A stretch of DNA of 64,000 nucleotides from Mesaphorura yosii (taxonomy: Eukaryota; Arthropoda; Collembola; Poduromorpha; Tullbergiidae). Shown here piece by piece: positions 5,676-33,033 of this stretch (position 1 is the stretch's first letter; every line of letters begins with the position of its first letter). A model generated the notes under the pieces. The model saw only the letters and a list, made by a program, of their open reading frames with translations, made no database searches and was not told the origin of the DNA. Made by a program: the position numbers and the translations under genes. The DNA is taken from positions 179,881-243,880 of the forward strand of contig WIXG01000091.1 of NCBI GenBank assembly GCA_009869945.1, written 5' to 3'.

Positions 5676-6144
5676 GATAAGGACATTAAGGATCAGTACT
5701 TAAGATTTATTAACGTAGTTACATTTACTTTAGTAACTTATAGTTAATTAATTGACTTCTGAGTAAAAATGACTGCAACTGCCAATTAATTGTTGCTGAA
5801 TTAGTTCACGTGTAATAAATTATGAAATTATGGACTCATCTTGACGTCGCGTCGCGTCGTTTCCTTTCATTTCATTTCACGCGTTGTAAATATAAAGGCG
5901 TGCTGAAATGCAAGCCGTCGAATAAAACGAAGTGCCGGGAGTTTCGCATTCAAAAGTCGCTTTCATTTCAAGCTTGCCTAGTCGGCTTTATCATCGTTTA
6001 TTGGATCCGAGCATTTGTTGGAGTGTAATTAGTATATTATTGGATTGATTTCAAGACGCAAGGTCTTAAGGAATCAGAATTAGGCAAGCAGCAAGCTTTT
6101 TTTTTAGCGGTCAATTATACTTCTATTCCTCTGGAAGTTTGAAG
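5676..6144 (+). other. XRN1-SNRPF interval with probable SNRPF 5' UTR exon
   Basis: No coding signal stands out; the open frame near 5822-6028 looks spurious. A GC-rich CGTCG run and a TTTCA run occur at about 5845-5880. The segment ends at a good donor, gaag/gtatgt, which pairs with the acceptor tttag at 6267. This suggests a noncoding first exon of SNRPF ending at 6144 and a 123-base 5' UTR intron. Confidence 0.4.
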
Positions 6145-6284
6145 GTATGTTAAGTTTTGGTTTCCCATCTTCACAATCGAGTTAAATATTGTGAAATATG
6201 TTTTGTCGGATCGCCGCATTCCATATTTAGTTAGCTATCGTATAAGTTATTGCTGCCATTGTTTTAGACCAGAAAACCGGCAAG

Positions 6285-6554
6285 ATGCAGATGCCAATGA
6301 ATCCAAAGCCATTTCTCAACTCCCTGACTGGGAAGTCCGTTGGTGTCAAGCTGAAATGGGGGCCTGAGTACAAAGGGTATCTGGTTTCTGTGGATGGATA
6401 CATGAATCTGCAGTTGGCACAAACTGAAGAAATTGTGGATGGAGTGGTGCAGGGTTCACTGGGAGAAGTTTTGATCCGTTGCAACAATGTACTCTACATC
6501 CGAATGTACGACGAAGACGAGGCTGGGGGAGGTGGCGACACAATGGATCAGTGA
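6285..6554 (+). CDS. SNRPF: Small nuclear ribonucleoprotein F (Sm-F)
   Basis: Sm-F is one of the seven proteins of the heteroheptameric ring on U1, U2, U4 and U5 snRNAs. The single-exon 89-residue frame starts [14 protein letters not shown], matching the conserved N-terminus of Sm-F. The Sm1 motif ([20 protein letters not shown]) and the Sm2 motif ([10 protein letters not shown]) are both complete, and the acidic tail is family-typical. The first ATG was chosen because the family begins at this point. A 5' UTR intron at 6145-6267 is likely. The gene lies head to tail behind XRN1 and is convergent with ELYS. Length and motifs fit LSm/Sm-F rather than LSm6. Confidence 0.95.
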
Positions 6555-6601
6555 CCAACTCAACTTTCTTGTTACTTATGCTTTGTAATTTAATCTCATT
6601 C

Positions 6602-6607
6602 AATAAA
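6602..6607 (+). terminator. poly(A) signal of SNRPF
   Basis: AATAAA lies 48 bases after the SNRPF stop codon. Confidence 0.7.
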
Positions 6608-6714
6608 AGTATGCAGTACTTTTGTTTATCTTGTGAGTTCTGAGCATTGTCCGCTCTTATTCCGCTTGTTTTATTACTTATTCACTGTGAAATCAATAAG
6701 GTAAAATCAAGAAA

Positions 6715-6720
6715 TTTATT
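6715..6720 (-). terminator. poly(A) signal of ELYS
   Basis: TTTATT on the + strand reads AATAAA on the - strand, 87 bases past the ELYS stop; a second copy is at 6670-6675. The SNRPF and ELYS 3' ends converge here. Confidence 0.6.
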
Positions 6721-6806
6721 GACAAAAATATGGAAGTTTGAATAAAGGGGTAAAACGTGAAAAAGTGGATTAAACTAATGGCAGATTCGTGTTTCCACCC
6801 TCTCCC

Positions 6807-9800
6807 TTACTTGGACGACGTAGACTTGGATCTTGTCAACATCCTAGTGGATGGCCCTGAGCGTGTACTTCTGTCTGACATCGTACTGCCTGTAGTAGAT
6901 TTTGAATCGTCCTCCTCTTTAGGTTCTTTTTTCACTCTCGCACGTTTCTTTGGTTTTTCCTCGATTATGGTTGCTGCCAGAATGGATGGTTCCGGCTTGG
7001 TCTCTTCCTCCTCCACGACTTCGTCCTTCACTGTTGAGGTCAGGGAATCCGATGTTTCGACTACAATTGATAAATTGGGGGCATATCCAAACACTCGCTT
7101 CTGGCTTCGTGTTTTGCTCGGTGAAGCTGGTGATTTGGACCGCTCCTTTCTTAAATCGTACTGCTTCACTGCTTCAGAAATGCTGACGCCAGCTGGAGAT
7201 GTTTCTGTATTTCAAAGAAGTTTCAAGTTAATAAATGCGACATTATCACCCGGAAAAATAGACAAATACCGGATTCTTTCGTTTCTGATCTGGCCCACAT
7301 CTTAGGAGTGTGGGACGCGGACAACTCCAAGTGATCTGTTTGGCAAGGAAAATACAAACTTAAGAGGAATGTTGGGTACTGATAATCATGAAATCAACAG
7401 AACAACCCCTGCACATAACTCTGTTGCACGCACGCACAACACAACTTCATACAGAGGCAATGGGAGTGAGTGTTTGGTCGTATGCCATGTTATTGAGCAT
7501 GCACGTCGTGACTTTTCAACATCGCCTGGATTGTACTGACAGGATTTGCACAAAAAGTCTTTAAATGGACCGATTTAGGGGTTTGATGCTGTTTCTTAAC
7601 TTTTCATGATTATGAGTACCCAACCTTTCCCATCTAAACACGCTCGGTACTTTGGCGTTTTCTTACCGAGGTAGTCGGAAGTTTCTAATTTCAAAGTGCT
7701 TTTCGTTTTTGATTTTTTTGATGATCGCCCGGTAGGGACATCTTAAAGACAATTAAGGAAATGATTAGCAAGCTGCATTATTTATCTCTGCCATTGTACT
7801 AACGCACCTGCTTCAAATGTATCGAAAATAGTTGCGTACGGTTCCTCCAACTTGGCTTTTGATGTGCGTTTGGAAATCGACGAAGAAGTGTCTACATTCA
7901 TAAGATTGAATAGAGCTAATCAATGCCACTCCATTGACCGTGTAGTATCGCAGTCAACCACTTACCAGGCGCTTCCGACCGTGCTCTTGTTTTGCGTGGT
8001 TGTGGTGGAGGAGAAGTAGACGCATTATCTATGAAAAAAATACACAGTTCATGGAAAGTTCTTGACCAGTTCTTGTTAAGTCCACTAACCAGGCTCTTCA
8101 GATCTCGCTCTGGTACTTCTCTTTCTTTCGCGAGAAGCGAGTACTGAGGTCTCCAAGCTCATGTTGTGAATGCTTTCATCCAGGCCTAATTTCTTAGACA
8201 AACTTCTGGTGAGACGTCTCTTTTCACCCTCCTCGATGTCCTCGCCTCTCTTCGAGTCAGGTGTCGCGCTCTTGGATTTATGGCGACTTCTGCTACTACT
8301 GCTCCTTTTTGATGGAGAAGTTGTTCGGCTACTACTGTTCCAAGGTTCGGACATGTTTGACAGATTCAAATCATCTGCAATTGAAAGACACGCTTCTTCT
8401 AGATTGTCCTCCGTACTTTGGATGGAGGCAGGAGCATCTAAAAAATTCCAGAAAATAAGCGATGCGGGTGACATGATCAAAATGAGATACTGGGCACGTT
8501 AACCTTACCTTCAGCTTCAGGCACGGTCCTAGACTTCTTTGCACGTGATGGGGTTGAAGTCACAGCTAGAAGTACCAGAATTACTGATAACCTTCATCAG
8601 AAACTTCAATTCAACTCCTTCCTTTCCTGTACCTGCACACGGTTCTCCGGACCTCGACCTGGACCTTGTACTGGCACTTCTTGTTCGTCCGACAGAAGGG
8701 GAGGGTGTCTTCAAGCTTGCATCGAGTTCTAGCCCTTCCGCCAAGGTTTCCTTGTTCTCCTTAGCTTCAGGAGTCTTACTCTTAGACTTGCTCCTGCTCC
8801 CCCTATCGACGTCGACTTTTTTTAGACGAGGAGTTACATCACTAATGTCTTGAATGCGTGGTGCAGCCACACTCGTGAGACTCGAATCGAACTCAAGTGA
8901 TGTATTCTTCTCCTTAGGTACACTTGATCTCGGGGTAACCGCTCGTTTGGGTGTGGTGCGAATATCTGAGTATAACGAAAAAAAGTAGTCTGAAAAATAC
9001 ATGCTATTAGCAATGAGGTGACATGTGACGTGTTGTTTGAATAGTTACCTGGAACTTCCGACGCAGCTCTTGTCCGTCTTTTGGACAGTGTACTTGAACT
9101 GGTGCTCGCACCTGAAACAATAATTTTAAGCCTGTTACAAAACTCTAATTTAAAGATGCCTTAATGTCTTTTGATCGAATTCTAACCCGGTTCTTCAGAT
9201 CTTGCCCTAGTTCTGATGCTGGCTCTTTTGCCAGATTGAAGGACTGAGCTTTCATTCAATGATACTTCGGTGCCAAGGTGCAAGCCGCTCTCAATCTCGT
9301 CGTTCTTAGGTTTTAGTTCTGGTGTGAAACTTTTCCTCCTTGGGCGCTTTCTTTCGCCAGTGCCCAATAGCAAGCTGCTTTTATTCTCGGCGTCGTCCTT
9401 AGGTTTTGGCTCCGGCGTGATACTCTTCGATTTTTTTCGCTTTCTGTCGACAACTATCTTCGGCGGCGACGGCGTAGGTTTGCTTGCACGAGGACTGTGT
9501 GGTTCGGTATAGGCGAGGTGCAAGTCTTCGATATCTTGTACAATTGGTTCCGCCGGCGTCACATTCATAGTAGGGTTTGATGTGGCAATACCTACATAAT
9601 ATTTGTAACAAATCATATCATATGTGACAGTGTTACTTTTCCAACAACGTATAGTAAGCAAGTACGCAATCTTACTCACCCATCTCTTCTTCAAAACTTG
9701 CTGCAGCGATAGCCACTGGACTCGTACTTTTCTTTCCTTCTTCAGGCACAGGTTCAGGTTCAGCAAGTGAATTTTCCACATCTTCATTTCGTGTGCTGAC

Positions 9801-18259: not shown

Positions 18260-20863
18260 TTAAGATGATTCCCAGGTTTCTGAAATCATTGCGGATCCCT
18301 TCTCTCCAATCATTGTGATTGGAGCCGCGGTATTTGCATTCGGAGTTAGAGGCATTATTGAGCCATCAATGACTCGTAGGTTTGTTACTTCAAGAACCCT
18401 TTAAAACAAACGGCACATGGCATTTGCTCAAGAATGATGGCATTGGAATTCAAAACCGTGAGTGTATTCACCTTAACTTTGAATCGACCACTGCAAACTT
18501 GTCTCTTGGCCCGTATCCCATCCGACACGACCCAGCCAAGTGAAACCAAGGCGCGCCAAGTTGCCCCACAAGACATCTCCAGTATTCATCAGATCTGAAT
18601 TTGTGACGGACGCAGTTTTTGTGTTGCTCAACAGTGTACCGAGTTCCTATGCGCTGAAATGCTGTTGTATTCTCGGCAATTTTCAGTGCCATCTTAATTC
18701 CTAAATGTTTTAGAGTACGAATCCAACTTTTCTCCCTGATAAAGATATGATTGAGGTCAGATTGCAGGCAGGATACCTTCGATTAGTACATCAATATCTG
18801 TTTCATCTTCTAGCAACCGATAGTCGATCACTGACAACTTCTCAGCATCCCGCTCTCCATCCAGATACGCGCTCGTGTTGAGAGAAATATACCCTCGGCT
18901 TTTCGGCCTTCCTAGCACAACGTCAAAGAAAATTTCTTGCGGAGTCTCCGGCTGGGGGTTGAAAACATCTGGTTTGAGTAAGATGTGTATGTCGGGCCAA
19001 TTCGGCTGGAGATCTCGCTTCGCTCTTGAGGAAGCCATGAACATTTGTCCTCCAAGTGCAGCATTCAGAATTCCAGTACCGTTCTTGTTTAAATAGTGAT
19101 CAATTGAAGAACTCGTCCAGCTTGAACCGATTGTAGGAAACAAGGAGGTGTCGTTGATACGAAAGCCACGCAGCCGTACCGTCGCATGATCTTGGAGTCC
19201 AATGCCAACGGGAAGATCAGCTACAACCGGAATCTGTTCGCGGTTGAGAGCAAGGCATTAAAACATGAAAGTGATGCGTGTCATGCGTGTCATTTTTCGA
19301 CACCTTCGCCTCGTTCAACAAATCCTTCGGCCCGATTCCGGACATCATTAACAATAATGGCGATGCAAATGCTCCTGCGCTAATGATGACTTCCTTTGTT
19401 GCATGTGCAATCTGAGGAATTCCATGTCTGTAGTATCGTACGCCAAATGCCTTCTTCTGCTCGTCTACCAAAATCTGTAGCCACAAATTCCTGATCAAAT
19501 TCAACCCATAAATTGCAGGTTCGTGAAACGATTGAAGAACTCACATTTGAAGCGGTAGCGTATCGAATTATCTTCAGTTTAACCCTACTTTTTTCTATTG
19601 GCAGAATGAATGCAGTGTACGAGCTGACGCGTCTTCCATTCGCTTTTGTTTCAGCCAAAGCAGCAAAGCCTGGAGTCAAAATACACGCGGCAAAGTAGCA
19701 CTCCAGCCAGGATTCAGATAGCACATGATTAATTTTTTACTTTCTGTTTGAGGTCCATTCGGATCTGCATTTCGAAATCCGAGCTCAGATCCAGCTTGAA
19801 GCCAAAGAGCTGTGCTCGGGCCCACACCATCGGCAACAGCCATTGGTCCGTTTGTTCCATGCTGATCTAAAAATAAAGAAATTCGCGAAGAAATTAGGTC
19901 ACCAGTTTGAATGCATGTCTAACAATGTGCTCGAAGCACTTCTCGGAAACAATTCTCCTTGAACAATTCTGGTGAGACAATTCCCCTGAAACAATGCTCA
20001 GAATACCTAGATGAATTTCGTAAGAATTATTCTAACTAAATGACCTGCCGCTCTTGTTTTATCCGAACTCGTGGCCAATTCGCCCTGAAGGTACTTCGAA
20101 CTCATGACACTGGAACTGCTGGTTGATGTGACACAGGAGTAGAAACGAAATGACAACTTCATCACCCTGAAACTATTTACTCACCACCCGCATACATTGT
20201 TCCGATGTATTTCTCCGACACCTTAAAGTATCTGAGAACATTTTCATATCTCCAGCTGGAGTCGTTTGCACGCGCCGCCCAATTGTCAAAGTCCGACGGA
20301 TTTCCGCGGTTGTACGCGAATGAATGATGCGATGTGGATCCTCCCAGCATCTTCCCGCCACGTCTTATCACAACCTTGAATTCAAAGACCAATTGGAACC
20401 AAATTAGGCTTAAATTAATTCAGCTGTAATCATACGCCTCCAATCGCTAGCGAAGCCTTCTTCTGCGGTAGGGAGACATATTCATAGTGAAGTTCTGGCA
20501 CTTTTACTATATTTGTCACAAAAGCAGGAACATTTGTTGGAGGCGGAGGAGTTCCACCTGCTTCCAGCAGCAGCACGCGATACTTCTCCGAAAGTCGGTT
20601 GGCCACCACACATCCTGCAGCTCCTGCTCCAACTGTGGAATGATAAGGACGGATAGTCGACGAGAACTTTACTTTACATGCCACTTTTCCAAATTTGATT
20701 GAGTCTTCCTACCGACAATGAAATCGTACTCTTCGGCGACGGGCAGTCCGAGATTCCCTTCCAGTTCATCCAATGTTTGCTCGAAATCAACTTGTCGATA
20801 CCTTTCAACGTAATAGCTGATTGTGAGCACAACGGAGCTCAGAACAAATGTGGACAGATGCAT
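18260..20863 (-). CDS. GMC oxidoreductase, glucose dehydrogenase-like (copy A)
   Basis: GMC enzymes are FAD-dependent alcohol or sugar oxidoreductases, often secreted in arthropods. Nine exons: 20863-20713, 20632-20436, 20374-20185, 19866-19741, 19669-19545, 19474-19304, 19233-18777, 18700-18472 and 18398-18260; 594 residues. The N-terminus has a hydrophobic segment (TFVLSSVVLTISYYV). The ADP-binding motif VGAGAAGCVVANRLSE crosses the first intron. GMC signature 1 appears as GGKMLGGSTSHHSFAYNRGN and signature 2 as GAFASPLLLMMSGIGP. The C-terminal domain contains LAGSCRMG and LRVIDGSIMPLTPNANTAAP. It is a tandem relative of copy B upstream, sharing most intron positions but with two extra introns, after GPQTES and after DSKLR. 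Substrate cannot be inferred. Confidence 0.9.
19944..20000. repeat. Degenerate short tandem repeat, GAAACAATT type
   Basis: About four imperfect units of 12-16 bases follow one another within an intron of GMC copy A, each built on (G)GAAACAATTC or GACAATTC. A similar array occurs at 62351-62440. Confidence 0.5.
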
Positions 20864-21144
20864 TTTCAATTGTACAGCAGACAAGCAGAACGAATGAAGT
20901 GTTGGAACAAGATGACCTGCGCTTTACCTCGACTCGACATATTTAATGTCTCCGTCTCGAACCTCTGATGATAAGATTAGTTTATAAATAACGAAGGTGA
21001 GTCAAATATCTGCGGCCTTTCCTTGTCTGGCTTGGGATTAGCACACGTTTTTAATCTTTAAGTTAGTCACACGCGTATCATTAACAATTCATTTCATACA
21101 CTACTTAATTATAATTATAAAACCCATAAGTCAAAGATTGTCAT

Positions 21145-23381
21145 TCAATTACGCGTAACGACATAAGTGTTATGCATCATCTGCGAAGGTTGCACAGTAC
21201 GTGTTACGTTCCACGCTTTCAGTATCATCGCTGACACGTTCTCACCAATCATTGTGATGGGCGCCGCAGTGTTGGAGTTCGGAGGCCTTGGCATCACTGA
21301 GCCGTCAGCAACCCTCAAATTCGAAACTCCAAGAACCCTCAATTTAGAGTCAACCACTGCGTCTTTATCTTCTGGTCCATGCCCCATCCTGCAAGGACCT
21401 GCCATATGAAATTCTGGGCCACTGACTTGAGTGATGAGACACCTCCAGTAATCATCCGATCGAAATTCGTGCTGTTTGCAATTTCTGTTTGGTACATCGC
21501 TGAATGTCGCGTTAATTCTTCGAAACGCCGTCGTATTCTCCACGATATTCATAACCACTTTGATTCCTAAACCGAAGAAATGCTGTTAGCGGCAGAATAA
21601 TGTATCACAATTTAATGTTTAATTGATGAAGTTGACTGAATCAACCTTCAAGCAAAACGGTGGCGTCGCTTTCATCACACAGCAATTTATAATCCAGTAT
21701 CGCCAGTTGCTCATCGTTTCGAATTCCTTCCAAATACCGGGTCGTATTCAAGGAAATAAACCCAAAACTTTTCGGCCTACCCAGTACAACGTCGAAGGAG
21801 ATTTCATGGGAATTCTTGAGCTGATTGAAGAAACCAGGCTTGAAAATTATTTGCAAGTCCGGCCACTGGGTCTCTCCTTCTAGCTTGGCTCTCGAAGACG
21901 CCCTGAACATTTGTGAGCCTTGATACCAGTACAACAGTCCAGCACCATTGTGCGTCAGATAATCCTCGATTGTATCTTTTGTCCAATTGAGAAAAAGTGA
22001 TGGAAATAGCGAAGTGTCGTTGATGTAGAATGGCTCCAGTCTTACCGAAACATGATCTTGTAACGTTTGACCAACCGGAAGATCAACGATAACAGGAATC
22101 TAATTATGAATGATCACTTGTTTCTTTTGTGTGTGGTTTTGTATTATTCTCGTGTTACCCGAGCTTGTTCCAACACAGCTTTGGGCCCAATTCCAGACTT
22201 GATTAGCAGCAAAGGCGACGCGAAAGCTCCAGCGCTTATTATCACCTCTTTTGATGCGTGAGCAATTTGTGGAATTCCGTGCCGGTAATATCTTACTCCG
22301 AAAGCAGTCTTTCGCTCATCGAAAAGAATCTGACTGACCGCATATGCTTGTTAATTCGTTAATTTCATTGGCATTTCGCATTTTAACTGCTGCCCTCGCA
22401 CGATTGATGTGCTCATACCTGCGAAACTTCTGCGTACCGGATTATCTTGAGATTCTTTCGTAGCTTCTCAATTGGTTCCAGAAAAGCTGTGTAGGCGCTG
22501 ACTCGTCTTCCATTCTCCTTCATTACAGATGTGGCCGTGAAACTTTCCATTTGAGGACCGTTCGGATCACAACTTGAATATCCCAGTTCGTGCCCCGCTT
22601 CAAACCACAGTGATGTGCTAGGACTGATTCCATCGTCAACCGCCATTGGTCCATTCTTTCCGTGCTGACCTTGAACACAAGAGCTCTGAGCAGATAAGCA
22701 CCAACAACCCACATTCCATTTCATTGTTTCCTTACTTTCACGGTACAAAGTTCCGATGTATTTCTCAGACGCCTTGAAAAATGGTAGGACATTCTTATAA
22801 TTCCAACTAGGATCATTTGTTAACTTGGCCCAGTTATTGTAATCCGAAGGGTTTCCGCGGTTGTAAGCCATTCCATGGTGCGAGGTTGAGCCTCCAAGCA
22901 TCTTGGCAGGACGCCTTGTGATGATCTGAACGTTCCAGATAAAATTAGATGCTGGGTGGACCAGAGTCTATAATTTCTTACTCCACCAGTTGACAAGGAC
23001 GCACTGGCTTGAGGAACTGATTGATACACATAATGGAGACACGGCACTTCAGCTACGTATTTAGCGAAAGTGGGCACCATCGTAGCCGGTGGCGGCGTGC
23101 CACCTGCCTCTAGCAAGAGCACACTGAATTGCTCCGACAATCGATTGGCAACAACCGAGCCGGCTGCGCCAGCGCCAACTGCAAGTGGAAGTTGTAAATT
23201 ACTTCGGGGACTTGATTCTCAGATCCTTACCGACAATGAAGTCAAAGTTTTGAGTCACGGGTAATCCGAGATCTGGCTCCAACTCCTTCAGTGTCTGCTC
23301 GAAATCAGCTTTTCGATGCTTTTCAGCGTAGTAACTGATTGTGAGCACAATGGAACTTAAAACAAAGTTGGAAATATGCAT
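21145..23381 (-). CDS. GMC oxidoreductase, glucose dehydrogenase-like (copy B)
   Basis: Same family and likely role as copy A. Seven exons: 23381-23231, 23178-22982, 22925-22736, 22669-22419, 22329-22159, 22099-21646 and 21566-21145; 611 residues. The first exon is the same length as that of copy A (151 bases) and encodes a similar hydrophobic N-terminus (NFVLSSIVLTISYYAEKH). Visible motifs are VGAGAAGSVVANRLSE, KMLGGSTSHHGMAYNRGN, GAFASPLLLIKSGIGP and LRVADGSVMPRPPNSNTAAP. The last exon is continuous where copy A has an intron, and it extends about 17 residues further at the C-terminus. Copy B lies upstream of copy A in the same orientation with 281 bases between coding regions, so the pair is a local duplication. 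Confidence 0.9.
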
Positions 23382-24906
23382 TTTCGCTTCGGTAGAGTTA
23401 ACGATTTGCAGATTCAGCAGCGAATGACGCTTGATTCACAAAAAACAGGCCTAAAATGATGAATGCGGGTAAAGGTTAGGGTAAGCTTCGTGGAGGCACA
23501 TATGGGTTCAAGCAACGCTTTAGTGCGTTTATTGTCAATCTGTCCGCTGTCCATCGGTACGGATAAAAATATCATATTTAATTGTACTAAATATGAACAG
23601 ATTAGCTTGCTTGGAATGTGTCTTCTCATGGTGGTAAATAAAAGACACACATGACATATACAGACATAACCGTTGACAGCATTGAAGCAGTTTGCTTTGA
23701 TTTGGAAGGAAGGATGCAAAGTTTTACTGCACTGCAATTATGACCATACACTCATCTGTTTCATTTCATCTGTCTTCAGACAGAAGACGGAGGCAATTAA
23801 ATATCGAGATGAGCTACATTCAGGAAGATTTCGTCCCACCAAAGGGTGGGTTTGGATTACACTAGTACGCCTGGAGACCCTGTGAAAATGATTCTCTGTA
23901 GATTTTCAGTCTGCCTGCTTTGATCTATCATTGGTGCGTTGTAGAAAAGTATTTTTCATTCCTAAATTACCGAATTACGTCGAAGTGATGGAAAAGCGAT
24001 GCATTCATTTATTTTTCGCACGCGAAAAAATGAAGGCGTAAACACAAACAAGAAGGTAAGACTGACCATCCGCATGGCTAGACTCTAGACTCTACGAATT
24101 TGGTGATGCGATTTGTTTTTTCAACTTCATCGCCTTCATCTTCGCCCCGTCTGTCAAAGTCCAAATAATGAAATCAGAACTTGACAAATATTAGGCTTGG
24201 TTATGAATTCGTCTTATTATCATCATTCTCGTGTACTCGTGCTCGACTATGAGTTCATGTTTGACAAAGTTCAACTGGTTTCTCAATTAATCCAGAAATA
24301 ACCAAACCTGCTGCTCTGTTTGTATATGATGGCTGGGACCTGGGTTTATTACAGAAGTTTCTCATAAGAAATTTTTTCCTTCTTGAAGTCACACTCTAGC
24401 CAAAAGACGTAATTTCTTTGTATAGATTTTTTCGTATTGGTTTTATTCCTCACATGCTGAACTGCGCTCATTAAGACATAAGACTCATTATGAATTGAAT
24501 TGTACTTGTAAACTAAAAACCTAAGAACTACAAGCTAAGGTAAGATAAAAGCTTAAGACGAAGTAATACACGTGTAGAGTATCTAAAATTAGTAAAGTGT
24601 TGACAATTTTGACACAATGAGAAAGATGAACACACTTCAACTCTCCACAGAATCTTGATAATTATAAGCTCCGCGTGCGCATTCGGGGCAAGGTTCAGAT
24701 CAACAGTTCATTCAAGCCAGAGAGGAAGTTCATAATACTACGTATTTATTTATACAATATTAAGTGGCAGACAGACTTTTGATTCAGTATCAAAATATAA
24801 ATTACATCATAATTAAAATTAAAGGCCTAAACTTAGCAAACATGAGGAATTCGATAAAACCGTGGCATGTGGCACAAGAACACACGCAGATAGACGCGAG
24901 TCCATG
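23382..24906. other. Intergenic region upstream of GMC copy B, no gene seen
   Basis: I see no family-like reading frame or RNA gene here. A minus-strand poly(A) signal for isocitrate lyase is at 24745-24750 (TTTATT on the + strand). Confidence 0.4.
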
Positions 24907-26585
24907 TTAATGCTGCGCAAGTGCAGATTTCTTATCAGAAGCGGAGCCTTCATCGAATTGCGCCTCCTCAGTGGATCCTTTCAGTGCTGTAATCGATGAC
25001 TGACCTTGCTGAATGACATTCGTGACTGCATCAAAGTAGCCTGTGCCCACTTCGCGCTGATGTTTAACTGCAGTGAAGCCGTACTCGCCTGCTGCAAACT
25101 CCTTCTGCTGTAGGTCGACAAAGGCTGGCATGCCAGTTGCGACGTAATTAAGGGCGAGGTCAAACATCGAGTAGTTGAGAGCGTGGAACCCGGCCAGCGT
25201 GATGAATTGGAACTTGTAACCCATTTGACCAAGTGCTTCTTGGAATGTAGCGATGTCGGCGTCACTCAGCTTGGCCTTCCAGTTGAAACTGGGCGAGCAA
25301 TTGTACGCGAGAAGCTTTCCAGGATAATGAGCATGGACTGCCTGGGCGAATGCTTTCGCGTATTGCAAGTTGGGCTACAAAGATTAGAGCGTGCCATTAA
25401 TTGTGTGTCATATTATAATTAATTAGTACATGTTCAGTTGTTATTCAACTTACTGTTGCCGTTTCACACCACAAAAGATCAGCGTAGGGCGCGTACGCGA
25501 TGGCGCGACTGATTGACTGCTGAAGACCAGGCTTGGTGCAGAAGAATCCTTCTGGTGTTCGCTTGCCAGTGCAGAACTGGCGATCATTCGCATCAACATC
25601 AGATGTAATGAGACTGGCTGCTTCACCATCAGTCCTGGCTATGATGACCGTTGGGACTCCCATTGTGTCGGCGGCCAGACGAGCTGCGGCCAGTTTGTCG
25701 ATAGCCTCTGAGGTGGGAACAAGGACTTTGCCACCTGAAAGGTCAGGAATGCAAGACAATTAGGCCTTGAGGCAAAATGAGACTTTCCGTGGACTTTGCC
25801 CGTGTAAAAGTAGACCAGTAGGTCGGATTGAGCTAAAAATAGGCAATTCTATTCATACTGGTCAAGACATGAATGCACTCACCCATATGCCCACATTTCT
25901 TCGCGGAAGCCAATTGATCTTCAAAATGCACGGCTGCGGCTCCTGCATCAATCATCCCCTTTGTGATTTCGAATGCATTCAGCACACCTCCGAAACCTGC
26001 CTCGGCGTCAGCGACGAGTGGGACGAACCAGTCCTCCACGCTGTAGTCGCCTTCTGAATGGTGAATCTGATCAGCACGCTGGAGGGTTTTGTTAATGCTG
26101 CGGACAAGCGCTGGAACGGAGTTGGCAGGGTAGAGTGACTGATCCGGGTACATTTCTCCTGAAAGATTTGCGTCAGCAGCCACTTGCCACCCTGAGATGT
26201 AAATAGCTTGCATTCCAGCCTTGACTTGTTGCATGGCCTGATTTCCTGTCAGGGCTCCCAATGCTTTCACGTATGGAGTATCGTTCACGAGGTTCCACAG
26301 CTTCTGTGCCCCATGCCTGGCGATACTATGTTCGATGGGCATGCTGCCCTGCAACGCTTCGACTTCAGCAGCAGTGTAACGACGCTTGATTCCTTTCCAC
26401 CTGGGATTTTCCTTCCATTCATGTTCAATTCTTGCGATGCGTTGTTGCCGGAGTTGTTGAACTGTCGGATTCTGCGTCGCCTGAGTCTTGCTGAAGAATC
26501 GTTGCTGAATTATGGAGAAAATCGGTACCGTTGAGGGGTTTGCAGCAATCAACTGGTTTTTTAATACTTGGGCGTGAAGTGCCAT
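24907..26585 (-). CDS. icl: Isocitrate lyase, bacterial AceA type with presequence
   Basis: Isocitrate lyase cleaves isocitrate to succinate and glyoxylate, the first committed step of the glyoxylate shunt. Exons are 26585-25883, 25734-25454 and 25374-24907; 483 residues. The catalytic signature [17 protein letters not shown] spans intron 1, with the active-site Cys near residue 231. [47 protein letters not shown] and STEEAQF follow as in the short bacterial enzymes. The length and lack of the large insertion seen in plant and fungal ICL place it near the AceA group; this is a family-level judgement. The first 38 residues are basic and Ser/Gln-rich (ending near QQRFFSKTQ) and resemble a mitochondrial presequence. 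The C-terminus is AQH, not an SKL-type peroxisomal signal. Introns exclude bacterial contamination. Confidence 0.95.
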
Positions 26586-29511
26586 TTTCGATCGTTAATT
26601 AGGTCAGAGTTGCGTGGTTATTAAAATGTCAAGTTGAGAAGAATGCTAAAATGCGTTTGTGACTCGTGTCAAGAGAGAGACTGGTGAAGGTTTGAGCTTT
26701 TCTTTGTGATTGAAGTAGGAACGTTGTGACTTGGTTTCCAAAAAGTATTTGGTTATCTATCCGAAATTAGCAATTTGTTTTTATACTAAAAGTTGGGAGT
26801 CTCACCACCACCAGGCAATCGGACCATCATCACCAAGAAGTACAGGGCCGGTCTTTCAGCATTCTACTTGTTTCCTATTCTTTCTACCGAAGTAGACTTT
26901 GAACAGTCGTATACCGATCGTCGCAATAATGCTGAACATTGAACGGAACTCTAAGAAAGGCAGTCAAGCAAACTCATGCGAGTTTGCATTGACTACATGT
27001 TAATGGCATTGATGAATGGAATTATTCTCGTTTCAAGTAAAGCAAAGTGTGTGTTTACGTGCGGCTATGGGCTTAGAAGAACCATCCCGTATACAAATCA
27101 AGTTAATATGAATCGAACTTATATGCAGTATGGGCTGACGAAACAAACCCAACGACTCAAAGGGTTCAATTTCTCTGACAAAGTCCAATCAACCAGCCAC
27201 GACTCGATGGAATATAACCCATCACGTAGACCAGACATAAAAACATTTCATCATTAAATCACGTCATTTGATTCGAGTCCACATGACGTTGGAACAGAAT
27301 GTAAACACACCACAAACACAAGCCACAGGAAAAAAATAGGAAGACCATCCCGTCACATCTCGTATCACGTCGGCAAACGACTTTATAATAAACTACCTTG
27401 CTTAAAATTGTATTTGTAAATAATTCCATGTGCTACAGGAAAACACGACAGAATTATCTTACGGACTTTATGACTGACCATTGCGTGTTACATAAGGGAA
27501 CACCCCATCATGGGGCAAGGAAAGGACAGGGTTCATGCCTCGCATCACGTCCTACGTCGTAGCTGGAGATAGAATGTTTATTTTTGTTTTGGTACCCAAT
27601 CCCAATTCACTTCCGAGAGTCGAAACTCGAAGTATTGACCAACTAATTTCGTAGATGTTAGTGACTCGAAAAGCTGAAGTCCAAAATTCAGACGTTCCAA
27701 AAATAAAATCTCATGAAGGCTTGAGACTCTTTGTTAACATTCCAGATTTAACCAGATCGACGTTATGAAGGATGGGCCCGGTAATCCCCAAATCTGACCA
27801 ATGAGAGTGGACTGTCAAGGAGGCGGAGGGTCAAATTCCATTCGAAATCAAGCTGCACTGTCTAAGTGACGAGGACGCGTCGGGGTTGGGGTAACATGGA
27901 GCATGCATTCTCATTTTCCCATTTTCATTGTTGATTTTCATTTCAGAGCAACAAGAACGACAGGTGATCGTTGCGAAATGCATAAGAAGAATTGTTTTGT
28001 TAAGACAAATACTCTATTATTGTAACCTCATTACCTAACTGATGAACGATTTAACATGCCAAACCTCGTGACACGGTCTTTGTACCCTCCTTATCAGGAC
28101 TGCAAATAAAGACAGATGGGCATGCAATATGGCCAGACGTCATCATATTTCATATTTGTGCAAATTCGAATTTTGCTCGCCCATCCAACCCGGCTCTCTT
28201 CCAAAGTTGTCGATAAATTATGTAAATCATTCATTCGTGGATCAGCGACATGAACTTTGTCCACACGTCACAAGCCAATAGTCCAAAGTCGTTTGAGCAC
28301 TGGTTACGCGAACACCTTGCACCCTGAACGCAAGCACGCATCATTAAACAAGATGTAAACAACAGAGCTAATACTGCGCGTATGAATGATGACCACACTA
28401 ATAGAATGCTTTAATCATAATTTCATGTTTGTGCTGCACTTGAGGTTTTGGGTTGTCACTTGTTTACAAACAGCTTCACACGAAAACCAGCATCGGTCGT
28501 TGGGACAGTTCACAATAAAGCCAAGCCGCTGGCATAGGATTTTTCCATTCTGTTTAAAAAAGTACTGCAAGACAATTGTCAAGAAGGAAACAAGAAGCCA
28601 AGGCAAAGAGGAATTTTCTGGTAAGTTTTCATATCATTTCCCCTGTACGCTTGCTTTGTTGAACTTTTGGACTCATCTTATACGGAAAGGTCGTTTTCAT
28701 GGTTTGGTTTTTGCCATTGGCTGTCTTGTCATGAAAGTAAGTAATCAGTTGTAAGGTATTACTTTGCATGGAAAAAGACTGCAGTTGATGAGAAATTTGA
28801 ACTCTGTGGTCTATCTTTAATATGCCAGTCTATGTTGCGTACCACTCCTCTGCCTAGTTTCCATACAAGATCGAAACAGCAATAATGACCAAATCAACTT
28901 ATTTTTATCACCCATGTTTACTTCTTCGCTGACATTTGTATTTAGAATTGTCCGCATTTGCATTATGGAAATATAGCTGGACGACATCACAAGTGCACTC
29001 ATTCATCTTGCTGTTAAGCCAGTAGCACAAGAATAAAAAATCCAGAATCCGTGAATCCGAATTCGTAACGTAGCGTTGTCTCACTCTGAACAAGAGCGCA
29101 GAAAGGTACGAACTTTGCATTATTGATCATGTCTCATCTGAAGGACGCCGCATAATCAAGTGCATTGTTAACATTTCAGATTAAATTGATACTCCTCCAA
29201 AGTTCCAGATCATCTCCCACGTCACCCCGATACTCCGACTCCATGATTTGATTCGATGCAGTAAGTTCAATAAGATAAGCCGATTACTGTGAGATTGATA
29301 CAGCTGGCCTTGTGCTTGAAATCGCTTCCCGTTGGGTTTATTCCTTCCTGGAATTCTGAGTGAACTTACTTGTGGACCTTGCTTTAACGTGGACGTGACA
29401 AGGCAATAAAATTTATTTGTACAATTGTTATGTAATGCATGCCTTCCAGCCACAAACCAGACACAAAAAGAAGTTAACCATGCCTTGTTTACGATTTCGT
29501 TTATGCAGATT
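26586..29511. other. Shared 5' region between isocitrate lyase and malate synthase
   Basis: The two glyoxylate-shunt genes diverge from this 2.9 kb stretch, so it must hold both promoters and any 5' UTR exons. A plausible acceptor (TTTATGCAG) ends at 29508-29509, just before the malate synthase ATG, which suggests a 5' UTR intron. Open frames at 26976-27257, 28386-28754 and others show no family resemblance. No repeat was recognised. Confidence 0.5.
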
Positions 29512-31652
29512 ATGTTGCTGAAACTCGCCGCATTAAGCCACAAGCCCAGCCTCAGTCTCTGTTTGCGCTCCATCGTCTTCACAATGAGTACTAAATCCTA
29601 TTCTTCGGCGACCACGCTCAAAATCGTGCCAGCTGTTGACGCAAAGTATAAAGATGTCCTGACACCGGACAGTTTGGAATTCCTGAAGAAGTTGCACTGC
29701 AATTTTGAAGACAGGCGTCAGGCATTGTTGGCACAGAGAGTTGTGCGCTACGACGAGCTGAAATCCGGTAAGACAAGCTTGCAGTTCTTGGAATCAACGA
29801 AACACATTCGCGATGATCCAAGCTGGAAGGTGGCACCGCTGCCACCGGCTCTTCAAAGGCGTCATGTGGAAATCACGGGACCAGTGGACAGAAAAATGGT
29901 CATCAACGCGCTGAACTCCGGTTCAGATTGTTATATGGCTGATTTTGAAGATTCAAACACGCCAACATGGACAAATCAGTGCAATGGGCAAGTTAACCTG
30001 AAGGATGCCATTCGAAGGCAAATTGATAGTGAAATCGGTGGGAAGCAGTACAAGTTGAAGCCCAAGGTGGCTACTCTGCTTGTTCGGCCCAGAGGTAAAT
30101 TCAGTCTTGCATTGGGGCATGCAATTAGCCATGTGACGTGGCCAATTTGATAGCATTTTGATCCGTTGCATGGAGGCTGGCATTTGGACGAAAAGCACAT
30201 TCTCGTGGATAACAAGCGTCTCTCCGGGAGCCTGTTTGATTTTGGTCTGTATTTCTACCACAACGCCAAAGAACTACTCAAGAATGGCCTCGGTCCATAC
30301 TTTTACTTGCCCAAGCTTGAAAGTCATCAGGAGGCAAGACTTTGGAATGACGTCTTCACATTTGCGCAGAAGGAAGTTGGAATTCCAGAAGGCACAATCA
30401 AAGCAACCGTGTTGATTGAAACAATTCCAGCAGCTTTCGAAATGGAAGAAATCCTGTACGAATTGCGTCAGCATTCGGCCGGATTAAATGCTGGTCGATG
30501 GGATTATATTTTTAGGTAATTTTTTGCACAACAAAATAATGGCACCAAGACTAATGTCCTGCATAAGGACTATACGCGCCCTCACGGATATATTTCAAAG
30601 ATATATTCCAAAGCAGTTCTGTTTTCTCTTTAGCTGTATCAAGAAATTCCGACATCGCGATGACCTTTGTTTCTCAAACCGGAGTTACGTAACGATGACC
30701 ACTGCATTCATGAGAGCGTATGCTCTTCTTCTGATCAAAACATGTCACAAGAGGAATGCTCCGGCCATAGGCGGAATGAGGTATGACCATGTTTTTCATG
30801 AAATCATGAGTCATATGTTATGTCACTTGAGGATATTTTAGCATAAGTTCGTCTTTCCAGTGCCTTGATTCCAATCAAAGACGATCCGGCTGCAAATGAG
30901 AAGGCGCTTGCTGGTGTCCGTGAAGACAAGGCTCGTGACGCAAGAGACGGTTATGATGGAGGTTGGGTTGCACATCCAGGACTGGTCGAATTGGCCGCAA
31001 CCGAATTTAGTGAGTATATACTTTGTCAGTGACATAACGCAGACTAAATGATTTCCTACTGATGCAACGTATCGAATCAGTTGTGTAAATGCTGAATCAG
31101 AATCTCTAATGAGTCTAATGCAACTTTAGAAAAAGTGCTTGGTGATAAACCAAATCAAATTGAGAAGCAACTGCCGGAGTTAATCGTGGAAGGGAAAGAT
31201 TTGGTAAACTTCCAGCCGGACAAGCTCATTATCACTGAGGATGGTCTGAGGCAGAACATTACAATCGGCCTTCAGTACTTGGCAAACTGGTTGGTTGGAA
31301 CGGGTTGCGTCCCCATCTTTAATTTGATGGAAGATGTAAATAACTACAACTTATGCATTAATTCTTCCAATAATGGATTTGACTGTTGGGCTGTAAATTT
31401 TAGGCCGCCACCGCTGAAATTTCTCGCAGCATGGTGTGGCAGTGGATTCATTCGTCAAAGGGAATTCTTGCTGACGGTCGAAAAGTCACCGTGGAATTGG
31501 TCAATTCAATTGTCGCAGAGGAACTGAATAAATTGAAGGTGTCAAACTCAAAGGGACTGCCGTTTGACAAAGCAGCTGAAGTATTCACGAAAATTGCAAT
31601 TAGCGATAAGTACGAAGATTTCTTGACCCTCCCTCTTTACGAAACATTTTAA
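29512..31652 (+). CDS. ms: Malate synthase (A type) with presequence
   Basis: Malate synthase condenses glyoxylate with acetyl-CoA to malate, completing the glyoxylate shunt. Exons are 29512-30094, 30176-30515, 30634-30780, 30861-31009, 31130-31335 and 31404-31652; 557 residues. Family motifs include [17 protein letters not shown], the signature [14 protein letters not shown] (about residue 300), [39 protein letters not shown], and the catalytic-base motif MED followed by [14 protein letters not shown]. The start was set at the ATG three bases after a likely 5' UTR acceptor; an in-frame ATG lies nine bases upstream. The N-terminal 32 residues are basic and Ser/Leu-rich, like a mitochondrial presequence. 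The C-terminus is YETF, without a peroxisomal signal. It is separate from isocitrate lyase, unlike the fused bifunctional protein of nematodes. Confidence 0.95.
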
Positions 31653-32173
31653 GTTTCTCTTGTTTCAATGATAAGAATTTAAGGAAATCGCCTGGAATAA
31701 AAGAGCAAATTAGTTTCCGTTTTCCGCTTGGCTCAACTTCATCGACGGTATTTGTTTCCCATCCAAATTCCGGATTTTCCGAATTTTGCAAAAGGGCACG
31801 AGAAGATGAGAGTACGACGCATTCATTCAATGCATCTCGCAATGTCAGTCATCGGTGTAAATTAACTCATCTCAGCTAAAGCACCTGAATTACTGGTCAC
31901 GTGGACGGTTCCGGCAAATCAAGCCATATGAAATTCTTTTTATCGTCAAAGTTGGCAGTCTTGATAGTGATTTTTTGGAACCGGTCGGGCGAGTCGTAGA
32001 TCGAGTTTCTTCAAGTTTCTTGTCTTTGTTCTACCAAAAAAGTATAGTCGGCGCATTTTCCAAATGAGACAACGTCCCAATTTTTGCAGTTTTAAGTTAA
32101 CAGCCTCAACTTAGCAAAATTTGTTCGAGTCGAGTGGACGAGTGAAGTCGGAGTGATTTCCCAAAGGAGGACA
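31653..32173. other. Malate synthase to ARL2 interval
   Basis: This holds the malate synthase 3' UTR, with AATAAAA at about 31697, and the ARL2 5' UTR. No gene was seen. Confidence 0.4.
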
Positions 32174-33033
32174 ATGGTTTTGCTCACAATTCTAAGGAAG
32201 CTGAGGGAGAAGGAAAGGGAGGTGCGAGTACTGATGCTGTAGGTCCAAGTGTCAACGATTTTAATTTGCAAAGGGAGATTGTCATCTAATTAACACTCCT
32301 TTCCATTTTTAGAGGGTTAGATAATGCGGGGAAAACCACAATCTGGAAGAAATTCACTGGACAAGATATAAACACCATTTCACCGACGCTGGGGTTCCAT
32401 ATTCAAACTTTGGAACACAATGGGTAAGTCCGCCATGCTGGTCATGCTCATGCCGAGTACAAGCTAAAACTAAAATTACTTTAATTGTGTATCTGGTGTT
32501 AGATTTCAGCTAAACATTTGGGACGTTGGTGGACAGAAGAGCTTAAGATCTTATTGGAAAAATTATTTTGAAAGCACCGACGGTCTCATCTGGGTCGTGG
32601 ACAGCGCGGACAAAATGCGTCTCAATGATTGCAAATTGGAGTTGCAAGGGTTGATACAAGAAGAGGTAATTAATTGATCCATTGACAAATTGGTTAGCTG
32701 TTTAGTCAGTATTCTCATACGCATGATTGCTTATGTGATACGATGTTTTCAGAGATTGTCTAGTGTCTCATTGTTGGTGTTTGCAAACAAAGCTGACCTG
32801 CCAGGTGCCTTAACCTGTGACGAAATCCGAGACGTAAGACAATATTACACTTATTGTTCACCGCTCCATTCGATTGAACAACTCATGTGTTCATGATGTA
32901 GACTCTTGGCTTGGATAAAATCAAAGATCAGCATTGGCAAATATTTAGCTGCAGTGCAATCACTGGTGATAATTTGGCTGAAGGAATGGATTGGATTACA
33001 AGTGATATTTCAACGAGAATAATTCTAGAATAG
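32174..33033 (+). CDS. ARL2: ADP-ribosylation factor-like GTPase ARL2
   Basis: ARL2 is a small GTPase that acts with tubulin cofactors and with PDE-delta/BART effectors. Exons are 32174-32238, 32313-32423, 32503-32665, 32753-32833 and 32902-33033; 183 residues, the usual ARL2 length. The start [20 protein letters not shown] matches ARL2 rather than ARL3. The P-loop [14 protein letters not shown], switch [19 protein letters not shown] (NKxD guanine motif) and SCSA are all intact. Gly2 is replaced by Val, which fits the lack of N-myristoylation of ARL2. Confidence 0.95.

Follow-up and report, generated by a model that had tools for sequence, protein, structure and literature searches.

Isocitrate lyase and malate synthase of betaproteobacterial affinity form a head-to-head pair of intron-containing genes in the springtail Mesaphorura yosii

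The glyoxylate shunt consists of isocitrate lyase (ICL), which splits isocitrate into succinate and glyoxylate, and malate synthase (MS), which joins glyoxylate to acetyl-CoA to give malate; by skipping two CO2-releasing steps, it allows acetyl-CoA from fat to pass through oxaloacetate to sugar. To our knowledge, most animals are held to lack this net route from fat to sugar. In nematodes and cnidarians, shunts of bacterial origin are already known, and a springtail ICL has been glimpsed before. Kondrashov et al. (2006) found MS in many animals, often without ICL, described the nematode ICL as proteobacterial-like and its MS as Bacillus-like, and proposed an undiscovered bacterium carrying a 'hybrid ace operon' as the source for nematodes (PMC1630690). 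For the springtail Folsomia candida, a brief mention puts ICL in the top three reciprocal hits of the transferred genes (PMC6513849), and an enrichment table for stress-exposed animals of this species contains the term 'glyoxylate cycle', with no gene named (PMC3060125). Here we describe an ICL and an MS gene in a 64,000-nucleotide stretch of the M. yosii assembly GCA_009869945.1 (contig WIXG01000091.1, positions 179,881 to 243,880; hereafter the window), lying head to head and placing among Betaproteobacteria. As far as the literature was searched, the novelty lies in a foreign MS as partner, one bacterial class for both genes, a gene pair that exists in living bacteria, and the head-to-head arrangement in a hexapod.

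The ICL gene occupies 26585-24907 on the minus strand in three exons and encodes 483 amino acids in an intact frame, as established from splice sites and translation, and the MS gene occupies 29512-31652 on the plus strand in six exons and encodes 557 amino acids, likewise in an intact frame. Each of the seven introns has GT-AG borders and measures 68-148 bp, two lying in ICL (148 and 79 bp) and five in MS (68-120 bp). The features of the locus are as follows.

25883..26585, minus strand: ICL exon 1, start codon at 26585 (splice sites, translation)
25454..25734, minus strand: ICL exon 2 (splice sites, translation)
24907..25374, minus strand: ICL exon 3, stop codon included (splice sites, translation)
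26586..29511, no strand: region between the start codons, 2,926 bp, with six GTAAACA/TGTTTAC sites
29512..30094, plus strand: MS exon 1 (translation)
30176..30515, plus strand: MS exon 2 (translation)
30634..30780, plus strand: MS exon 3 (translation)
30861..31009, plus strand: MS exon 4 (translation)
31130..31335, plus strand: MS exon 5 (translation)
31404..31652, plus strand: MS exon 6, stop codon included (translation)

A preliminary description of this DNA had reported two intact, intron-containing and unfused genes, divergent across some 2.9 kb, and our models bear this out: they end exactly at its outer limits, 24907 and 31652, and the genes are separate, on opposite strands, with 2,926 bp from start to start. 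The three ICL motifs that it quoted are all found in the spliced protein, one of them, 14 residues long, spanning intron 1. At the 5' end of MS a second in-frame ATG at 29503 offers an alternative start, and an intron in the 5' untranslated region might use the AG at 29507-29508 as its acceptor. A search of the whole 93.0-Mb genome found the ICL family in the window only, as four exon pieces, and the MS family in the window and at a second place on another contig, C118.

The family membership of both enzymes is clear. Against the NCBIfam equivalog PRK15063 the ICL protein scores 765 bits over residues 44-468 (cut-off 562), and the methylisocitrate lyase models reach 99 bits or less; the spliced protein contains KKCGH, which we take to be the ICL signature. 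MS scores 733 bits against NCBIfam TIGR01344, malate synthase A (cut-off 594.5), and only 19.6 bits against the isoform G model, and the best of its three solved relatives is PDB 3cux, a Bacillus enzyme. The PRK15063 and TIGR01344 scores are far beyond chance. The Pfam ICL profile was matched at 4-257 and 353-526, leaving profile positions 258-352 unmatched, so that the distinctive insert carried by plant and fungal ICLs (PMC1630690) is missing from the window protein. Among its solved relatives, chains of 428-450 amino acids score 568-680 bits and chains of 538-563 amino acids, taken by their length as long-form ICL, score 268-291 bits. The unmatched Pfam stretch and the better short-chain scores rule out the plant and fungal long form, with its insert of about 100 residues; together with the bacterial placement given below, they agree with the earlier assignment of this ICL to the short bacterial AceA type.

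For ICL, the best 80 of 592 bacterial stretches were kept as relatives, a sample that leans to close relatives; these loci are 66-76% identical over the whole length, and their titles name Beta- or Gammaproteobacteria or simply Proteobacteria. Three alphaproteobacterial ICL rows, in a listing that took 40 records spread across 297 from plasmids, stood at 61-64%. Among 398 Pseudomonadota genomes the best identities were 75% for ICL and 66% for MS, and any match to MS was found in 110 of the 398, the best at 65-66%; of the 18 genomes that yielded ICL loci, 16 had an MS match. On plasmids, 81 records matched the MS, the best being nine from Mycetohabitans at 63.5-65.7%, and the Mycetohabitans ICL is 68-70% identical to that of the window. 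The ICL tree comprised 85 rows and 431 columns, using 82 of 129 bacterial frames, and the MS tree 73 rows and 531 columns, using 71 of 91; ten loci judged to duplicate a retained one were dropped, 37 of the 80 ICL loci were left out for tree size, the frames from L037 and L056 (ICL) and L140 and L076 (MS) were too short, and one genome, G132, enters each tree twice. In the ICL tree the window protein groups with five Chitinibacteraceae (support 98/92). Its union with two alphaproteobacteria is rejected (62 log units worse, approximately unbiased test, p-AU 0.001), and that with six alphaproteobacterial, actinobacterial and PDB rows is rejected less firmly (30 log units, p-AU 0.019). In the MS tree the window protein lies inside a set of 21 rows whose named members are all Betaproteobacteria (support 100/99); this set branches, weakly supported (89/73), on the same side as the MS of Bacillus, Deinococcus and actinobacteria, and union with PDB 3cux is rejected (p-AU 0.0005). 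With the named alternatives rejected, both ICL and MS appear to be foreign and to belong among Betaproteobacteria. The earlier suggestion that ICL was acquired horizontally and then gained introns is supported by its bacterial placement and two GT-AG introns, and is amended in that MS, too, nests in a bacterial class.

The same placements bear on ancient retention, the other possibility raised in the preliminary description. In the form considered here, both genes would go back to an early ancestor of animals or eukaryotes, with loss in other lineages, and the Nematostella pair would be the same thing. The Nematostella genes were indeed reported as adjacent, on opposite strands and 5'-5', although the authors allowed for an assembly artefact (PMC1630690). 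Both window genes, however, nest among Betaproteobacteria with good support, the union of ICL with alphaproteobacteria is rejected, and the published nematode ICL is alphaproteobacterial-like at more than 70% (PMC1630690), against 61-64% for the alphaproteobacterial rows listed here. Ancient retention is disfavoured by the fact that both genes lead back to a single bacterial class, some members of which carry them next to each other, and we consider it very improbable.

It is also at odds with the second MS, a different gene that is probably the inherited one. This lies on C118 (45500-53500, stretch L090), on the minus strand at about 5691-2950 of L090, and is interrupted by introns; over the best stretch its exons share 43% identity with the window MS. 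Assigned by exclusion and general resemblance rather than by comparison with an annotated animal MS, it is probably the animal's own gene, and the springtail's two MS genes probably differ in origin. For the window MS itself an animal origin is rejected, as it nests in Betaproteobacteria and the MS taken as the animal's own is the one on C118.

In bacteria the two genes are often neighbours. MS was found in the stored flank of 31 of the 80 ICL loci, always on the same strand as ICL (31/31). Eleven of the 80 have the order ICL then MS, with gaps of 66-2,866 bp and an MS 57-64% identical to that of the window, and these come from Silvimonas, Chitiniphilus, Chitinibacter, two Deefgea, Cupriavidus and five metagenome-assembled genomes. 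The order MS then ICL is seen in 20, chiefly relatives of Xanthomonadales, with an MS at 45-50% identity. An ICL-then-MS pair is also carried by the Mycetohabitans rhizoxinica plasmid pBRH01 (L162, 4199-7596). A proteobacterial ICL thus exists as a pair with this type of MS, in the class to which both window genes are assigned; the bacterial pairs do not point to the nematode donor, which had an ICL of the alphaproteobacterial type. We also noted that sister strains of M. rhizoxinica are listed with the fungus Rhizopus microsporus as host and that aceA-aceB is on the megaplasmid. It is conceivable that the Mycetohabitans plasmid was a route into fungus-eating springtails, although the trees do not favour it.

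Bacterial contamination of the assembly might be suggested by identities to bacterial proteins of up to 76%, and earlier springtail and mosquito ICLs were dismissed on such grounds (PMC2726227, PMC1630690). Here the introns and the animal genes on both sides, in a contig of 244 kb, rule it out; the base composition is near that of the host, with a GC content at third codon positions (GC3) of 0.53 for ICL and 0.51 for MS beside 0.52 for an exon of the native MS on C118, and the best ICL identity is itself no higher than 76%. We regard contamination as hardly credible. Comparison with bacterial relatives further shows 79-88% matching at second codon positions and 34-40% at third positions (eight comparisons, 419-530 codons), a contrast which, read from these alignments, is the mark of long purifying selection.

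Both proteins are extended at the N-terminus, ICL by about 40 residues past the bacterial starts (seven bacterial loci) and MS by about 25-30. The extensions are free of acidic residues, the first of which stands at position 54 in ICL and 43 in MS, and the C-termini, SALAQH in ICL and PLYETF in MS, carry no SKL-type peroxisomal signal. The shunt enzyme of C. elegans is mitochondrial (PMC4880444), and from this parallel, the N-terminal composition and the C-termini both window enzymes are predicted to be, and likely are, mitochondrial as well.

We propose the following model. A springtail ancestor would have taken up betaproteobacterial DNA in which aceA (ICL) and aceB (MS) were neighbours, and inversion of one gene would have produced the head-to-head pair. 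Both genes would then have gained introns and N-terminal extensions and drifted toward the composition of the host, and their products would act in mitochondria, feeding the synthesis of trehalose under starvation, cold or drying. We give this reading as a whole a probability of roughly 80%. One capture followed by inversion of one gene would be the simplest history; within this best explanation the intact genes, their families, the bacterial gene order and the placement in both trees are observed, and we infer the single transfer event, the mitochondrial site, expression, regulation and physiological use. The genes predict what is probably a working glyoxylate shunt in a hexapod.

Several observations pull the other way. 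The chief limit is that the ICL tree samples bacteria and PDB chains, with nematode, cnidarian, algal and amoeba short-form sequences outside it; in addition, gammaproteobacterial groups are mixed into its wider betaproteobacterial set. The row nearest to the window MS is a single genome, G368, with support of only 49/30; placing the window MS with Silvimonas, Chitiniphilus and Casimicrobiaceae is neither favoured nor rejected (p-AU 0.243), and the MS of three other Chitinibacteraceae stand apart, so that the two trees disagree on the nearest bacterium. Both window branches are long (0.49 and 0.65), which leaves the exact sister unsure. Adjacency in bacteria is common and not the rule, 49 of the 80 ICL loci having no MS in the stored flank. 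The GC3 of seven neighbouring exons is 0.39-0.49, slightly below that of both genes, and the helical amphipathy of the N-termini is unremarkable, being reached by 12% and 33% of other stretches.

The disagreement over the nearest row would fit two separate transfers, ICL and MS having come from related bacteria at different times and become adjacent by chance, and in other animals the two enzymes looked to stem from different bacterial groups (PMC1630690). Yet both window genes place in one bacterial class whose members can hold them less than 3 kb apart, as in the 11 loci described above, and they are neighbours here, where chance adjacency in 93 Mb would be improbable; we judge separate transfers unlikely. 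A further alternative concerns function and not history, namely that the intact genes serve another role, with MS detoxifying glyoxylate, a promiscuous lyase beside it and no net flux from fat to sugar. Many animals keep MS without ICL (PMC1630690), so MS alone may be useful. Against this, ICL is conserved over its full length at 66-76% and retains KKCGH, its score sets it far from the methylisocitrate lyases, both steps of the shunt are paired, and a second MS is available for duties that call for MS only. Such a role is quite unlikely, and a captured pair acting as a shunt remains the preferred reading.

The region shared by the two genes contains six GTAAACA/TGTTTAC sites, at 27052, 27301, 28355, 28461, 28915 and 29486, where 0.48 would be expected from the rest of the window; the other 61 kb hold ten, never more than two within a length equal to the shared region. 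GTAAACA, which we take to be the FoxO core, was picked by eye before counting and ranks second of the 2,277 seven-letter words in the 2,926 bp. In random sequences some seven-letter word reached six copies in 121 of 200, and GTAAACA itself did so in 0 of 2,000. Ten other motif patterns sought in the shared region gave an excess only for looser FoxO variants, with none for nuclear-receptor, GATA, E-box, CRE, C/EBP-type or TATA patterns, and the repeats found there were short, weak pairs only. The preliminary description had read the layout as suggesting co-regulation; 2.9 kb is long for a shared promoter, and the candidate FoxO-type cluster is the sole hint found that the two genes may be regulated together. 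FoxO control through these candidate sites is a good lead, and in C. elegans icl-1 rises in starvation in dependence on daf-16/FoxO, with flux to trehalose (PMC5655125).

The locus lies inside a contig of 243,880 bp, of which the window is the last part. Pfam scans of two sets of flanking frames, with matches in 5 of 10 and 6 of 10, identified exons of XRN1, lipase and GMC oxidoreductase to one side, where an ELYS-like exon fell just below the cut-off, and exons of PRP39 and aldehyde dehydrogenase to the other. Two flanking genes are placed as follows.

21145..23218, minus strand: GMC oxidoreductase exons (Pfam PF05199 and PF00732 on two frames)
32174..33033, plus strand: small GTPase gene, which from the translated reading frames we take to be ARL2-like

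Two adjoining GMC-oxidoreductase-like exon sets, tandem copies by eye, are seen on the minus strand at 18757-23218; Pfam matched frames of the 21145-23218 set and not the single frame tried from the other. Elsewhere in the assembly TTAGG, the arthropod telomere repeat, gave 40 overlapping pattern matches on 12 contigs (C668 to C1114) and the reversed control none, and several of these contigs have more than one array, up to kilobases apart. Contig C420 carries isopenicillin N synthase-like exons at 5766-6945 on the minus strand and an open frame of 3,156 amino acids at 24688-32376 on the plus strand. An approximate isopenicillin N synthase query matched three neighbouring stretches there at 54, 70 and 61% identity, with five weak matches elsewhere in the genome, and the long frame, about 18 kb from these exons, has three condensation-domain matches. 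The exons and this putative peptide-synthetase frame make a probable beta-lactam cluster. Springtails have been reported to carry isopenicillin N synthase and ACV synthetase clustered together, although some lack the cluster (PMC8138834), and isopenicillin is highlighted in an annelid genome paper as well (PMC8460440). The TTAGG arrays and the C420 genes point with high, if not complete, confidence to a springtail genome; mitochondrial COX1 had no match in the assembly.

The window also casts light on ICL clones from the Arctic springtail Megaphorura arctica. These were 71% identical to a bacterial ICL and carry a mark in Additional files 1-4; by their description, files 2-4 give the Top 20 clones up-regulated in dehydration experiments. 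The clones were called bacterial contamination on the strength of the bacterial match and of a product that measured 800 bp from DNA and cDNA alike (PMC2726227). The primers used encode ERRYTA and LAYAPY, where the window has KRRYTAA and IAYAPY, and match the window DNA at 15 of 20 and 12 of 20 bases and eight bacterial loci at 13-15 and 12-18; because the window match is no better than the bacterial, the primers do not decide whether the clone was animal or bacterial. Between the primer sites the window would yield an intron of 148 bp in addition to 757 coding bp, as opposed to the single 800-bp size in M. arctica, so that either a difference in introns or real contamination is possible there. 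Given introns and animal neighbours at our locus, the contamination verdict merits re-examination, and by analogy an animal origin of the clones is plausible. Among the papers listed by searches of the open-licence literature, no springtail MS partner or ICL locus was found, and terms for ICL, MS and glyoxylate were absent from the main texts of the F. candida genome, its drought proteome and springtail transcriptome papers.

A hexapod with the whole shunt, its two enzymes drawn from a single bacterial class, would demonstrate that a pathway of two steps can be acquired as a unit and remade as genes of an animal. The locus also points to living bacteria with a combination of ICL and MS of the sort that was put forward in 2006 as the source of one animal shunt and was then unknown, and it makes a discarded result testable, as the dehydration-induced Arctic clones may represent an animal gene that feeds cryoprotective trehalose. 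More tentatively, and as a possibility that we hold to be doubtful, a one-time operon capture in the springtail ancestor may have given rise to a divergent, FoxO-controlled, mitochondrial pair whose net conversion of fat to trehalose underlies drought and cold tolerance; the Arctic 'contaminant' would be this same gene, and nematodes, cnidarians and springtails would have come to their shunts by separate ICL-MS captures, the springtails with a FoxO control like that of nematodes.

Among the systems described so far, C. elegans resembles the window in that an animal carries a short, bacterial-type ICL with MS, reported to be of bacterial origin (PMC1630690). Its ICL-1 is mitochondrial, rises in starvation in a FoxO-dependent manner and is needed for desiccation tolerance (PMC5655125, PMC4880444). 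The nematode enzyme differs in being one fused protein, ICL then MS, with an alphaproteobacterial-like ICL, where the window has two genes of betaproteobacterial type. Nematostella, compared by description only, is closer in layout, with two bacterial-type genes on opposite strands, 5'-5', and introns in ICL, but its ICL and MS were reported in different bacterial sets (PMC1630690). The ICLs of F. candida and M. arctica share with ours a bacterial-like ICL in a springtail, and the portions of those descriptions available contain no partner MS, locus, introns or donor (PMC6513849, PMC2726227). The betaproteobacterial aceA-aceB pairs of Chitinibacteraceae, Cupriavidus and Mycetohabitans pBRH01 have the same type of ICL (69-76% identity) and of MS (57-66%) as neighbours; unlike the window genes, they lie on one strand, with MS after ICL, and have neither introns nor such an N-terminal extension.

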